Below the pieces are notes generated by a model. That model was not told the origin of the DNA and ran no database searches. It saw only the letters and a program-made list of their open reading frames with translations. Position numbers and translations under genes: made by a program. From positions 1,128,587 through 1,192,586 of the forward strand of contig NZ_CP054051.1 of NCBI RefSeq assembly GCF_013372265.1: a stretch of 64,000 nucleotides of DNA, read 5' to 3'. This document shows positions 51,105 through 57,619 of the stretch, one piece after another. The stretch's first letter is position 1. Each line of letters opens with the position of its first letter. Origin of the DNA: Aliarcobacter cibarius (GTDB lineage: Bacteria > Campylobacterota > Campylobacteria > Campylobacterales > Arcobacteraceae).

Positions 51105-51746
51105 TTATAACTCTGAATTAATAAGCTTTTTAAGATTTTCTAATCCAAATTCTTGTAATGGTTTTCCATTTACAAAATAAGATGGAGTTTTATTTGCTCC
51201 TAATGCTTTTGCATCTTCTAAATCTTGTTTAATGATTGAATCAGCTTTTTTAGTATCTATAAACTCTTTTATTTTTTGCATATCAAGACCTTTTACATTT
51301 GGTAAGATATCCCATAAATCTTTTATATTAACTTTGTGATGTTTTACCCAATAATCTTGAGTATCAAACATAAAATCTAATACATCTAAAAATAATCCTT
51401 GTTCTCTTGCTGCTTCTAAAATCATTACTGCATAATCTGAATTTTCATGAAAAGGCGCGTATCTAAGAACTAACTTAATTTTTTCATCATTGTTTTTTAA
51501 TATCTCTTTTACATGAGGATGAAATAATGCACACGTTTCACAAGCTGGATCAAAAAATTCAACTAATTGAACTTTTGCATCTTTATTTCCTACTACAAAT
51601 GAGTAATCTCTTTGAAAAAGTGTTGATTGTTCTTTTGATAAATTAATATATTTTTCTGACTCTTTGTTTTGGTAGATATAAATTCCAACAAAAAATATTG
51701 CCAAAATTATAATTGTTGATAGCAAAACTAGCTTTTTATTTTGCAT
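51105..51746 (-). CDS. DsbA-family periplasmic thiol oxidoreductase
   Basis: This 213-residue protein has an N-terminal membrane anchor (LVLLSTIIILAIFFVGIYIY) and a DsbA-like thioredoxin fold. The motif FFDPACETCALFHPHVKE carries CETC near residues 70-73, and the cis-Pro loop is NKTPSYFVNGKPL. It is last in the efflux operon, 89 bases behind the TlpA/ScsD-like gene. Confidence 0.88.
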   Translation of the reverse strand: MQNKKLVLLSTIIILAIFFVGIYIYQNKESEKYINLSKEQSTLFQRDYSFVVGNKDAKVQLVEFFDPACETCALFHPHVKEILKNNDEKIKLVLRYAPFHENSDYAVMILEAAREQGLFLDVLDFMFDTQDYWVKHHKVNIKDLWDILPNVKGLDMQKIKEFIDTKKADSIIKQDLEDAKALGANKTPSYFVNGKPLQEFGLENLKKLINSEL

Positions 51747-51835
51747 AAATACTCCTAAAATTTATATTTCGAGCGATTCTATCATAAACTTTGTGTAGTT
51801 TATGTCAATACTTCTTATTTGCTTGAAAATAGATT

Positions 51836-52333
51836 TTAGAAGTTACTAAATTTCATTCTTAAATATAATCCAATATATGAGCTATAACCAACTTCACTGA
51901 ATTTTAGATTCAAATTTTTGTCATAAATAAAAGTAGTTGGATAAGCTTTTATATTGAATCTTTGTCCTAAAGAGCCATCTTCATCATTTATAACTCTAAA
52001 TGTAAGATTGTTTTTCTTTAAATACTCTTTTATTTCTTGATTACTTCCCGATTGTGTGGCAATAGTTATTACTTGAAAATCTTTAGAGATTTTTTCAATA
52101 CTTGCTTCTTCTAGTTTACAAACTGGGCACCAAGTTGCCCAAAAGTTTATTAAAATAGGCTTTTCGTTTTCTAATAAATATTCACTGCCATCTAATAAAG
52201 TAAAACTTTTAATATCAAATTTTTCTTTGTTTAAATCAAGAGAATTGTAGTAGCTAACAATATTTAAAGCAATTATGATTACTACAGTGTATTTTATAAG
52301 TTCTCTAAGAATTTTTTTTATTTTTTCATTCAT
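51836..52333 (-). CDS. TlpA/ScsD-like membrane-anchored thioredoxin
   Basis: This 165-residue protein has an N-terminal anchor (VVIIIALNIVSYYN) and a thioredoxin domain with WATWCPVCKLEEASIE (CPVC, near residues 68-71). The cis-Pro is in IKAYPTTFIYD. ScsD-type proteins pass electrons or disulfides in the periplasm. The ATG at 52333 overlaps the end of the pump gene by eight bases, so the two are translationally coupled. Confidence 0.87.
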   Translation of the reverse strand: MNEKIKKILRELIKYTVVIIIALNIVSYYNSLDLNKEKFDIKSFTLLDGSEYLLENEKPILINFWATWCPVCKLEEASIEKISKDFQVITIATQSGSNQEIKEYLKKNNLTFRVINDEDGSLGQRFNIKAYPTTFIYDKNLNLKFSEVGYSSYIGLYLRMKFSNF

Positions 52334-53987
52334 TGACAATCTTTCTTAAACTATTTTTTATAACAACAGGTACAAAAAACATAGAAACCACATAAGAGAT
52401 TAATGTTCCTCCAATAAGTGCAACTCCAAGTCCACCAAAAACTGCATCATTTGCTATAAGACTACTTGCAAAAACTAAAACTAAAACAGTTAAAATTATT
52501 GGTTTTGATCTTGTTGCTGCTGCTCTTGCAATAGCTTGATTAACCTCAAGTTTCTCTTCAATAACTAACTGTTTTGCAAAATCAATAATCAAAGTTGAGT
52601 TTCTAGAGTTTATTCCAATCAATGCTATAAATCCAATAAGTGATGTTGCTGTAAGATAAAAGATATCTTTTGTAAAAATATCCATAATGATATGAGCAAA
52701 AATCACTCCAATAATTGAAATAAAACTTGAAAGAACTATTGCACCACTTAAAGCAAAATTTTTATAATACATAACCATAAGTAAAAAAATTAAGATTAAG
52801 GCTACTATAAAAGCTGTACCTAAATCAATGAAAGTGTCAATAGTAACTTGTAATTCTCCATCAAAAACTAAATCAAATCTCTCTTTTGTATCTTTATGTA
52901 CAAATGAAAGGTTTAGCATATTGGTTTTTATAATTTCATATTTATTTGAGAATTTTTCAATCATCTCTTCTCTTGAATTTAAAAGAGGGTAGATTTGGCT
53001 ATCATTTGAAGTTTCTGCTATTACATTTATTAAAGGCTTTAAATTCTTTGATGTAACAACTGGTTCTTTGATACTTTCTTTAATAGAAACTAGTTCTGAA
53101 ATACTAATCATTTGTCCCATATTATTTATAATTTTTAGACTGTTTAATTTTAAGTTTAAAGCTTCTTTTGAATTATCGTTTAATTTTTTGCTATCATCAA
53201 GTCTTAAAAATATTGGGATTTGGCTTTGTGCATCCTTATCGTTTACAACAGCTATCTCCATACCTTCAAATGCAAGATATAAAGTTGATTTTAAATGTTC
53301 TAAATCGATACCACTCATAATTGCTTTACTGCTATTTATATTTAAAATATAAGTTTTAAAATCTTCACTTGTAAGAATATCAATATCTACTAAAGTATTT
53401 TGATTTTTAAATATGTTTGCAACTTCTATTGTAAAATCTCTTCTAGAATTAAAGCTATTTCCTCCATAAATTTCAGCAACAAGTGAAGATAAAACAGGAG
53501 GACCTGCTGGAAGTTGAATAAATTTTATTATTGTTTCATCTTTTTGACAACTATTTTGAACTTTTTCTCTAAGAATGTTTACTAAGTTATAACTTGTAAT
53601 ATCTCTATCTTTAAATCTTTTAATATTTATCATAAGTTCAGCTTGAGATTCTTTATCTTTTAGTGAACTTTGTTTAACCATTCCTGCAAAATCTATAGGT
53701 TGACCTTGAGATAAAAAAGCTGAAATATTTAAAATATTCTCTTCATTTTCAAGATTTTTTATAACACAATCAACTACTTTTTTTGTATCATATTTGCTAG
53801 AACCATCTTTTAAATCAATATAGATTGAGAAACTATCAGAATCTTTATCTGGAAGCATTTTTGCTTTTAAAATATTTGTTGGAAAAGATAAAATTGCTAA
53901 TACAAAGAGAACTAAAGTGATAAAATAAACTAAAAATATCTTCTTTTTGCTATTTAAAATATCTAAAACTATTTTTTCTAGACTCAT
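52326..53987 (-). CDS. RND efflux permease, C-terminal half
   Basis: This 553-residue protein equals the second repeat of an RND pump: TM7 near residues 17-36 (IFLVYFITLVLFVLAILSFP), the large periplasmic porter loop, then TM8-12 with IGFIALIGINSRNSTLIIDF and a final VALIGGTLISYVVSMFFVPV. It starts with ATG inside the stop of the N-terminal half (ATGA overlap), with AGGTGG ahead as a ribosome binding site. It may assemble with its partner, or it may result from loss of one A in a six-A run of a once single gene. Confidence 0.88.
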   Translation of the reverse strand: MSLEKIVLDILNSKKKIFLVYFITLVLFVLAILSFPTNILKAKMLPDKDSDSFSIYIDLKDGSSKYDTKKVVDCVIKNLENEENILNISAFLSQGQPIDFAGMVKQSSLKDKESQAELMINIKRFKDRDITSYNLVNILREKVQNSCQKDETIIKFIQLPAGPPVLSSLVAEIYGGNSFNSRRDFTIEVANIFKNQNTLVDIDILTSEDFKTYILNINSSKAIMSGIDLEHLKSTLYLAFEGMEIAVVNDKDAQSQIPIFLRLDDSKKLNDNSKEALNLKLNSLKIINNMGQMISISELVSIKESIKEPVVTSKNLKPLINVIAETSNDSQIYPLLNSREEMIEKFSNKYEIIKTNMLNLSFVHKDTKERFDLVFDGELQVTIDTFIDLGTAFIVALILIFLLMVMYYKNFALSGAIVLSSFISIIGVIFAHIIMDIFTKDIFYLTATSLIGFIALIGINSRNSTLIIDFAKQLVIEEKLEVNQAIARAAATRSKPIILTVLVLVFASSLIANDAVFGGLGVALIGGTLISYVVSMFFVPVVIKNSLRKIVNE

Positions 53988-55555
53988 TTTTTACCACCTA
54001 AAAACTTATTTACAAAATATGGAGTAAATGCGTATGCAATAAATAGCGAAACAGCTAAAGAAATTGATACAAAAACAGGAAGAGGGTGCATGAATTCTCC
54101 CATCATACCACCAACGAAGAACATAGGTATAAATACCATAATAATAGCTATTGTTGCTATATTTGTAGGATTTCCTATTTCATTTGTAGCATTTATACTA
54201 ATTATTCTTATATCTAAACTAGGATTTTCTTTTTTATGCCTATGAATATTTTCAATTACTATAATTGCAGCATCAACAAGCATTCCAAGAGATACTATAA
54301 GTGCAAAAAGTGTTATTCTATTTACAGTTTCACCAAGTAAAAATCCAATAAACAGAGTTAAAGATAAAATCATAGGAACAGTTAAAGAAACTATCATGGC
54401 TTCTTTAAATCCAAGAGTAAATATAAGTAAAATTGAGATTATTACAATTGAGATTAAAAGGTCTTTTACCAAAGCATTTACAGCATTATTTGCTGTATAT
54501 CCATCATCTCTTGTAATTGTAAACTTAACATTTTTTTGTGCTAAATCTTCTTTTTTACTATCTAAATACTGAAAAATTTCTTCATTTATTGTTACCGAAT
54601 TTGAACCTTTTAATTTTGAAGCCATAAGCGTAATTTGATTGTTTTCTTCAAATTTTCCTGATTTATTTTTTGTATAAATGTAAGCATCTTTTTTATTTTG
54701 GATGTTATATGATTTTTCTATTTTTGCAATATCTTTTAGATATATTGGAGTTTGAAAATTATATGAAATTATTAGATTTTCTAAATCTTTTATCGTTTCA
54801 ATTCCTTTTTCAATTGAAAAAATAGTAAATTCACCATTTTTTGTATAGTTTGAAATATTTGGAGTATTGAAATTTAAAGCCTCAATTTGTTTTGCTATAA
54901 AAGCCATAGATAAGTTATATGAGCTTAGTTTATTTATATCAACTAAAATATTAAATTGTTCTTTTTTTTCACCTTTTAACTCTACTAAAGCTACATTATC
55001 TATTCTATTAATCTCTTTCGTTAAAGGATTTACAATATTATAAAGTTCTGTTTGACTTAAGATGTCAGAACCCTCTTTTTTTGCACTATAAAATGCAACT
55101 GTTGCTATTGGAATTGCTGTATCTATATCCATAGTTTTTATTATTGGTTGCATTGCTTTTTTTGGCATTAAATCCATATTCCTCATAACTTGGTCATAAA
55201 GTTTAAGATTTGATTGTTCTTTGTCTTCTCCAATATAAAACTGTACTTGAACGATTCCTACGCTATCTTTTGCAAAAGAGTAGATATGTTCAACTCCTTT
55301 AATCTCTCTTATTTTCTTCTCTAGAGGCTCTATTATTATCTTTTGGACTTCACTAGCTTTTGCATCTGGAAGTGCTACAATAACAACTCCTCCACTTACT
55401 TTTATTTGTGGATTTTCTTCTTTTGGCATAATTTGTAGAGAAAAAACTCCCAAAATTAAAATAAAAACTCCCAATATTAGAGTTAATGGATGTTCGATAA
55501 AATTTTTTGCAATTTTTCCAGCAATATTTAGATTATTACTATTTTTTTCATTCAT
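53984..55555 (-). CDS. RND efflux permease, N-terminal half
   Basis: This 523-residue protein equals the first repeat of an RND pump: TM1 (LTLILGVFILILGVFSLQIM), the porter loop, and TM2-6. The TM4 segment ALIVSLGMLVDAAIIVIENI carries the Asp used in proton relay. It ends after TM6 with LGGKK and a stop. The start overlaps the adaptor gene by eight bases. The sequence is closest in style to metabolite/solvent-type RND pumps with IMPKEENP after TM1. The substrate is unknown. Confidence 0.88.
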   Translation of the reverse strand: MNEKNSNNLNIAGKIAKNFIEHPLTLILGVFILILGVFSLQIMPKEENPQIKVSGGVVIVALPDAKASEVQKIIIEPLEKKIREIKGVEHIYSFAKDSVGIVQVQFYIGEDKEQSNLKLYDQVMRNMDLMPKKAMQPIIKTMDIDTAIPIATVAFYSAKKEGSDILSQTELYNIVNPLTKEINRIDNVALVELKGEKKEQFNILVDINKLSSYNLSMAFIAKQIEALNFNTPNISNYTKNGEFTIFSIEKGIETIKDLENLIISYNFQTPIYLKDIAKIEKSYNIQNKKDAYIYTKNKSGKFEENNQITLMASKLKGSNSVTINEEIFQYLDSKKEDLAQKNVKFTITRDDGYTANNAVNALVKDLLISIVIISILLIFTLGFKEAMIVSLTVPMILSLTLFIGFLLGETVNRITLFALIVSLGMLVDAAIIVIENIHRHKKENPSLDIRIISINATNEIGNPTNIATIAIIMVFIPMFFVGGMMGEFMHPLPVFVSISLAVSLFIAYAFTPYFVNKFLGGKK

Positions 55556-56270
55556 CTTTTTTATCCAAATTTATAGATATTTTTGAATACATTGATGGAT
55601 AGATTTGGAAATCTTTTTTATCAAAATCTATTTTTATTACAAATGAGTGAGCATTTGCTACAGTATTTGGGTAAATTGCAACTATTTTCCCTTTTGTTTT
55701 AAATTCTAAAGATGGTATTTCTATATCCACTTCTTGATTTAATTTAATATTTTTTAGATTTGATTCAGCAATATTTGCTTTTATTATTAGTGAATTTAAA
55801 TCAGTTAAAATAAGATGAGGCATTCCTGGCATTGCCATTTCACCTTCTTTAATAGATTTTTTAATTACTAAAGCATCATTAGGAGCTTTTACTTTTAGAT
55901 AGCTAAAGTTTGCATTTAATTCATTTAGTTTCGTTCTTGCTGTAAGTAAATTTAATTCTAACTGTTCATATTCATATTTTGAAACTAAATCTTGGTCTAA
56001 TAAATTTTTATATCTTTTTAGATTAAGTTCAAGAGTTTTAACTTGACTTTTTAAAATATCACTATCATGTGTAATTCCTGTTGAATCAATTTCGTATAAA
56101 ATATCTCCTTTTTTTACACTATCCCCTTCATTTACATTTACTTTTGTAATGTATCCCATCATTTTACTAGAGATTATTTTTTCATTTTGAGATTCAGTTA
56201 CTCCATCTAGTTCTATAATATTTGCGAAAATATTTGTTATTAAAAGTGCTAAAACTATAAATTTTTTCAT
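55548..56270 (-). CDS. RND periplasmic adaptor (membrane fusion protein)
   Basis: This 240-residue adaptor has a signal-like N-terminus (FIVLALLITNIFA), a biotinyl-lipoyl-like domain (GYITKVNVNEGDSVKKGDIL), a short coiled-coil hairpin (about residues 75-120) and a beta-barrel domain. It is shorter than most adaptors, lacking a long membrane-proximal domain. It overlaps the TolC gene start by four bases and the pump gene by eight. Confidence 0.9.
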   Translation of the reverse strand: MKKFIVLALLITNIFANIIELDGVTESQNEKIISSKMMGYITKVNVNEGDSVKKGDILYEIDSTGITHDSDILKSQVKTLELNLKRYKNLLDQDLVSKYEYEQLELNLLTARTKLNELNANFSYLKVKAPNDALVIKKSIKEGEMAMPGMPHLILTDLNSLIIKANIAESNLKNIKLNQEVDIEIPSLEFKTKGKIVAIYPNTVANAHSFVIKIDFDKKDFQIYPSMYSKISINLDKKDE

Positions 56271-57619
56271 TTTTCTTCTCCTGTTTTAATATTCTTACCT
56301 AAAACTAAATTCAAATTTGCAAGTGCCAAAGAATTCTCATAAATGGCTTCTAAAAGCATAGTTTGACTTTTTTCATAGTTTGTCTCTTGATTAATCAAAG
56401 TAGTCATTGAGATTAATCTATTTTTATATTGAAGTTTAGCTTGATTTAAAACTTCATTTGCAAGCTCTTTTGCTTCTATTTTTTCTTTTAGTATTGCTTG
56501 TTTTGCTTTATAATTAAGCATTGCTTTTTCAAGTTCTAATTTAATACCATCTTTTAATTTTTCATAATCTAGCTTTGATTTTAACTCTTCTAATTTAGCT
56601 TTTTCAACTAATGCATTTCTTGAACCATCAAAAATAATTAAGCTAATTCCTAAAAGTGCCATATAGTAATCTTTATCTTGATCAGATGTAAATCTATTAT
56701 CATTCACACCATATTCTAAATGAGTGAAAACTTGTGGATAATATGAACTTTTTTGTATATCAATGTTTTTATTATTTGCATCAATTGAAATTTTCTGTAA
56801 AGATACTTCATCTCTTTTTTCAAGAGCTTTTTTATATAGCTCTTCTTCATTTTCAAAATCAAAGTAGATATTTTGAATTCCTTCTACATCACTGATTAAT
56901 TCATTTGATGTAAGAAATTTTAGATATGCTAGTGATAAATTAAAGTTATTTTCTGCTTCCACTAGTTTTGAATTTACATTTAACATATATACTTTTGCTT
57001 CATTTACATCAATTTTTGTCACAAGACCATTTTTATGAAATTCTAGTGCACTGTTGTGAATGAACTCAATATTTTTTTGAGCATTTTTCATAGTTTTTAG
57101 ATAGTCTTTACTTAATACAGCACCATTGTAAGCTTTAAGTACTTCAAATTCTAAATTTTTTTTGTCTAAATTATATAAAATTTCATTTGCTTTCTCTTGT
57201 AATTTTGAAATATCTTTATAGTTTTCTAGTTTAAATCCTGTAAAAAGAGGTAAATCATAGCTTACAAAGTTATTTATAGCTGTTCTATCACCTGGATAAT
57301 TTAAATCTTTTGGAGTTGTATTTATTCCTTCATTCATTTGAGAAAACCCAAAATCTTTAAAAGTAGCTTCTCTACTAGATAATTTCCCCATAAAAACATA
57401 TCCAGCATGGTTTGTACGGCTAATATTTGAGTTCAGAGATAAAACTCCATAGTTTGAGGCAGTAATACTATTTGTATCTTCTTTTGATATTTGTATATTA
57501 AGTTCTTGCTTTTTTAAATCTTTACTATTTCCTAATGATTGTTTTAAAGCTTCTGAAAAATTTATAGTTTGTGCAAAACAAAAATGAGAAATTAATAAGC
57601 TTAGATAAATTTTCTTCAT
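56267..57619 (-). CDS. TolC-family outer-membrane efflux protein
   Basis: This 450-residue protein has a signal peptide (KKIYLSLLISHFCFA) and two OEP repeats rich in long helices, including the typical KRDEVSLQKISIDANNKNI segment near residue 250. It is the outer-membrane duct for the RND pump encoded downstream and the first gene of the operon. Confidence 0.92.
   Translation of the reverse strand: MKKIYLSLLISHFCFAQTINFSEALKQSLGNSKDLKKQELNIQISKEDTNSITASNYGVLSLNSNISRTNHAGYVFMGKLSSREATFKDFGFSQMNEGINTTPKDLNYPGDRTAINNFVSYDLPLFTGFKLENYKDISKLQEKANEILYNLDKKNLEFEVLKAYNGAVLSKDYLKTMKNAQKNIEFIHNSALEFHKNGLVTKIDVNEAKVYMLNVNSKLVEAENNFNLSLAYLKFLTSNELISDVEGIQNIYFDFENEEELYKKALEKRDEVSLQKISIDANNKNIDIQKSSYYPQVFTHLEYGVNDNRFTSDQDKDYYMALLGISLIIFDGSRNALVEKAKLEELKSKLDYEKLKDGIKLELEKAMLNYKAKQAILKEKIEAKELANEVLNQAKLQYKNRLISMTTLINQETNYEKSQTMLLEAIYENSLALANLNLVLGKNIKTGEEK

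Follow-up and report, generated by a model that had tools for sequence, protein, structure and literature searches.

An RND efflux permease encoded by two adjacent half-genes is conserved across Campylobacterota

In Aliarcobacter cibarius, the permease of a predicted tripartite RND efflux pump is encoded by two adjacent half-genes, RND-N and RND-C, and we propose that this is very probably a permanently divided permease whose co-translated N and C chains pair as one protomer. The usual description of RND drug and metal pumps is of a single chain with 12 transmembrane (TM) helices that originated in an internal duplication; by sequence comparison, the two-piece pump is a real, conserved structural variant of this known class, and an old one rather than a broken gene. 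The locus lies in the window, i.e., the whole stretch of 64,000 nucleotides that was analyzed, and comprises the following features:

51836..52333, (-): TlpA/ResA-like thiol oxidoreductase gene overlapping the end of RND-C (profile search and gene-neighborhood comparison)
52326..53987, (-): RND-C, second RND repeat, TM7-12 and second periplasmic loop, 553 aa (ORF, translation, ACR_tran match, model)
52488..52511, (-): Arg493 and Thr500 of RND-C in TM11, at the AcrB R971 and T978 positions (alignment)
52602..52604, (-): Arg462 of RND-C in TM10, matching K940 of AcrB; every split and fused row has Arg here, as do the plasmid relatives
53547..53768, (-): Cys74 to Cys147 of RND-C; both present in 60/62 and neither in 2/62 Campylobacterota homologues
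53984..53987, (-): ATGA stop/start overlap of RND-N and RND-C (sequence); a -4 overlap recurs in 34/80 distinct junctions
53987..53992, (-): run of six A (A6), conserved in near relatives only (sequence and junction survey)
53994..53999, (-): AGGTGG, ribosome-binding-like site for RND-C, six bases 5' of its ATG (sequence)
53984..55555, (-): RND-N, first RND repeat, TM1-6 and first periplasmic loop, 523 aa (ORF, translation, ACR_tran match, model)
54272..54274, (-): Asp428 of RND-N in TM4, at the AcrB D407 position; every split, fused, and outgroup row has it
55548..56270, (-): periplasmic adaptor (membrane fusion protein), 240 aa (HlyD_D23; TIGR01730 over its cutoff)
56267..57619, (-): TolC-family outer-membrane channel, 450 aa (Pfam OEP, E 2e-44)

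The Pfam ACR_tran profile (PF00873; cutoff 28 bits) is matched by RND-N over profile positions 2-491 (E 2e-74, 251 bits) and by RND-C over positions 518-1016 (E 1e-39, 137 bits). The match to the RND permease family thus runs across both repeats, no portion of the profile is missing from the two chains combined, and the break falls in the cytoplasmic TM6-TM7 linker, just as an earlier note made from the sequence had it in placing the end of the first gene after TM6 and the start of the second before TM7. A single-chain tripartite permease of the HAE/HME type has both repeats on one polypeptide; here, they lie on two ORFs, and that arrangement is conserved. In single-chain models of medium confidence (pLDDT 72-73, pTM 0.47-0.55), each half has six TM-type helices and a single large periplasmic loop (residues ~43-350 in N and ~34-377 in C); the two together make twelve TM helices, the loops following TM1 and TM7. 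Foldseek searches with these half models matched CmeB, AcrB, AcrD, and OqxB.

The 3' end of RND-N reads GGT AAA AAA TGA, with the ATG of RND-C sitting inside the ATGA. The four-base overlap, the AGGTGG motif, and the A6 run that the earlier note described are all present in the sequence, and its estimate of about 1077 codons for a fusion agrees with the 523 + 553 = 1076 aa of the two products (1077 codons including the stop). As neighboring genes of the operon overlap too (channel and adaptor by 4 bases, adaptor and RND-N by 8, RND-C and the TlpA-like gene by 8), an ATGA junction is nothing unusual between coupled genes at this locus. Among the relatives, the gene order channel-adaptor-N-C is conserved, with N and C invariably adjacent and N first; the linked adaptor and TolC-family channel genes of a tripartite efflux system accompany the permease. 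In several families, the operon is placed between rpsA-serA and efp; such a housekeeping location speaks for vertical descent. A plasmid of Sulfuricurvum kujiense carries an additional copy, which adjoins TetR and MarR regulators. Two different split pumps coexist in some genomes (L035 and L049 in G051; L040 and L057 in G042), the second lying outside the conserved rpsA-serA/efp position.

The split is widespread. In a first sample, in which a search of 60 relatives was followed by junction analysis, it occurs at the identical domain boundary in 30/30 genomes of the same genus and in 15 further genera. For a sample of the phylum, the C half was used as the query against 298 evenly drawn Campylobacterota genomes (E 1e-40 or better); it matched 97 of them, 90 with a separate C-half ORF and eight with a fused copy, one genome having both. 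A break recurring at one domain boundary in so many genomes goes beyond chance. The separate ORFs (open frames of 551-676 codons) come from 28 genera, and the fused copies show 35-37% identity to the C half. The earlier note had asked whether relatives have the same split, and these two samples answer that they do. In a sample of the family Arcobacteraceae, the N half was found in 87/104 genomes and in none of them within a stop-free fused frame, the apparent long frames all being interrupted by a stop between the halves (cf. L018). In both Sulfuricurvum kujiense and Sulfurovum mangrovi, RefSeq likewise annotates a pair of neighboring genes as “efflux RND transporter permease subunit”. Outside Campylobacterota, no split was seen among the nine plasmid-borne relatives inspected (L124-L132, from Pseudomonadota, Cyanobacteriota, and Bacteroidota), all of which are single genes of ~1060-1119 aa; a one-protein contig scan reached close relatives only.

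A tree of 74 sequences places the 53 split pumps in one clade (SH-aLRT 100); nine fused Campylobacterota pumps lie next to it, and other RND proteins fall outside. The clade reappears in trees of the N halves and of the C halves alone (support 99 and 100, respectively) and persists when the plasmid relatives are included; the fused homologues form a sister clade of their own, with identities of ~45% for the N half and ~35% for the C half. In one family, these fused homologues carry an N-terminal extension of ~100 aa, charged and coiled-coil-like, which may be a start-site artifact (L052:5194-8709). The simplest history suggested by the trees would be one split without re-fusion; repeated splitting or re-fusion was set aside, as a single change is enough. 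Between species, dN/dS is ~0.08-0.18 for RND-N and RND-C alike, and both are, as judged from their sequences, under purifying selection. Pairwise distances of the N and C halves correlate with an r of 0.97, a value that fits permanent co-inheritance and would be expected from that alone, hence no proof of contact.

The junction itself bears on an alternative raised by the A6 run, namely that programmed or stochastic frameshifting or stop readthrough yields a full-length pump, alone or beside the halves, as a switch or as dosage control. The run abuts the TGA, and in a survey of 80 distinct N/C junctions, graded by identity to the A. cibarius pump, it is retained before the stop in 14/16 of the nearest homologues (77% identity or more), where the -4 overlap is present in 16/16. 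Away from these it is lost, being found in 4/37 junctions at 60-77% identity, in 1/27 below 60%, and thus in 19/80 overall. The C half lies in the -1 frame at 61/80 junctions, which, against a reading in which the halves are only ever made separately, would also suit -1 frameshifting; however, such an excess is what the two commonest overlap types, ATGA and TAATG, yield in any case, and all three relative frames are present (61, 12, and 7). The N-to-C spacing spans -14 to +12 bases, the N-half stops are TGA in 40, TAG in 20, and TAA in 20, and every C half has its own start, preceded by an SD-like motif at 79/80 junctions (loose motif set). The survey shows no conserved slippery sequence of the kind expected of a programmed-frameshift gene, and the slip-prone on/off site suggested by the earlier note finds no support as a conserved feature. 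At some junctions, readthrough of the stop alone would suffice to join the halves; at L018, L020, and L034, they share one frame, with a stop codon and 9 bases between them. An occasional or rare slipped fusion product may arise in A. cibarius, and stop readthrough is conceivable at the same-frame junctions of some relatives; frameshifting or readthrough that makes a full-length pump as a switch or as dosage control is very unlikely.

A second alternative is that the halves are independent, forming separate homo-oligomers with different roles and no shared protomer. Separate chains are free to act alone, and half-size RND proteins do occur elsewhere in the RND superfamily; nevertheless, N and C are constantly adjacent in a fixed order with the adaptor and channel, and their evolutionary distances follow one another. 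Further, the proton-relay residues of a single protomer are split over the two chains and yet all retained. Of the relay positions known from AcrB (D407/D408, K940, R971, and T978), the first is represented by Asp428 on RND-N and the last three by Arg462, Arg493, and Thr500 on RND-C, all four being conserved among the split sequences in the alignment; the D408 position holds Ala, Asp, or Ser, and that of K940 holds Arg. In AcrB, these residues interact within one protomer, so the two chains would need to pair within a protomer to energize the pump. Taking these observations together, we consider independent halves very unlikely. As for a sequencing error or a recent frameshift that inactivated an ordinary single-chain RND gene, to which the single base in an error-prone homopolymer separating the two frames might point, it has next to no probability, being ruled out by the conservation of the split, which is present in all close relatives and phylum-wide with differing junction sequences, stops, and frames and with both halves under purifying selection; no close relative shows the single fused gene with A7 that the earlier note named as the mark of such an error. 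Of that note's two options, it is thus the true split pump built from half-subunits that is strongly supported, by its conservation, its single clade, the selection on its halves, its operon, and its relay residues, all at the level of sequence, and the conserved slip site that falls away.

For the permanently divided permease, we infer a physical pairing in the membrane of RND-N (TM1-6) with RND-C (TM7-12), which would form one pseudo-twofold RND protomer; this obligate N+C heterodimer would then take the place of the RND protomer in a tripartite pump. By analogy with AcrB, three such pairs (3N+3C) may form an AcrB-like trimer, which would carry out transport with the adaptor and TolC-type channel from its own operon, its proton drive coming through a relay formed by the Asp on RND-N and the Arg/Arg/Thr on RND-C. 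We regard it as likely that the Campylobacterota clade as a whole represents such an obligate heterohexamer, with a two-chain protomer and with proton coupling that reaches from one chain to the other.

Among known systems, the AcrB/AcrD/AcrF family (PF00873; CmeB, AcrB, MdtB, MexK, TriC) shares with the split pump the full ACR_tran profile, a total of 12 TM helices, the TM4 Asp and TM11 Arg/Thr of the relay, and an operon that also encodes an adaptor and a TolC partner; the split pump differs in having two chains and an Arg at the AcrB K940 position. The fused Campylobacterota pumps (L050-L055, L107-L109) and the plasmid relatives (L124-L132) belong to a common subfamily with it in the tree and have the same TM10 Arg, but unlike the split pump they are single genes of ~1060-1170 aa. 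RND-N and RND-C score far under every NCBIfam permease cutoff, for which the half length of each chain is partly responsible. This caveat applies to the HAE-1 models TIGR00915/NF033617 (150/236 bits for N and 94/95 for C, against cutoffs of 940/1250) and to the CusA/CzcA model TIGR00914 (128 bits against 701, a cutoff that a half-length chain can hardly reach). The TM4 motif VDAAI is common to CusA and the split pump, and the His-rich tails of its distant relatives are a further likeness to the CusA/CzcA pumps, but CusA and the split pump group apart in the tree, which is better evidence than the TIGR00914 score. With neither the CusA/CzcA nor the HAE-1 cutoffs reached, both assignments were rejected and the subfamily is left unnamed. 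A precedent for RND-superfamily repeats carried by two six-TM chains is SecD/SecF (PMC8277102), an accessory of protein translocation that has no adaptor or channel; RND-N matches SecD_SecF_C weakly (E 9e-5) and falls short of the curated SecF family TIGR00966 (23 bits against 160). Two genes likewise supply the heterotrimeric RND pump MdtB/MdtC (PMC8277102). Each of its chains is, however, a full-length one with 12 TM helices, so that the mixing is between protomers, whereas the split pump would divide one protomer. The tested Aliarcobacter pumps are AreABC, AreDEF, and AreGHI (PMC8300790); the text of that report holds no usable locus coordinates, and identity of the split pump with any of the three was not established. 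The A. cibarius genome also encodes two full-length RND genes (G000:C1:124694-127675 and G000:C1:243913-246894), ~119 kb apart and each scoring 864.8 bits against ACR_tran, which from this looks like a recent duplication. Within the open-access literature, to which the search was confined (subscription papers and preprints being beyond its scope), no description of a split, half-size, or two-gene tripartite RND pump was found; we claim no priority.

Cys74 and Cys147 lie ~73 residues apart in the first periplasmic segment of RND-C and, in many homologues, are the sole two cysteines of the entire pump. The pair is shared by 8/9 fused Campylobacterota pumps; both residues are missing in L101 and L051, and the nine plasmid relatives lack the pair. 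Such joint retention or loss is what a disulfide would predict, and we consider a periplasmic Cys74-Cys147 disulfide probable. A His-rich tail (e.g., MHHHHHHFQK) is found at the C terminus of RND-N in 15/80 distinct split pumps, including L036, L038, L040, and L106, all distant from the A. cibarius pump, which has none; the linkers of fused relatives contain His. Genes for TlpA/ResA-like and DsbA-like thiol oxidoreductases lie 3' of the pump (51105-52333), the TlpA-like neighbor being linked to it only in some Arcobacteraceae. Five of the distant fused relatives (L124, L128, L129, L130, and L131) adjoin genes for ArsR regulators, DUF2892, FAD/NAD(P) oxidoreductases, a TIGR01244 sulfur transferase, rhodanese, or DsbA. 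These neighborhoods hint that the wider subfamily has a sulfur or thiol-stress role; taken with the His tails and the thiol-oxidoreductase neighbors, they hint at metals or thiol/sulfur stress for the split pump.

The retention of a natural split in many genera indicates that these pumps can do without the TM6-TM7 link. Such a split provides a ready-made system in which half-by-half assembly, proton coupling over a chain boundary, and the separate regulation or exchange of halves can be approached; if the two-chain protomer holds true, halves might in principle be swapped in genomes that have two copies. For annotation, half-length RND genes of Campylobacterota should not be labeled as truncated or as pseudogenes, and an efflux inventory based on counts of permease genes may overlook or double-count the split pump.
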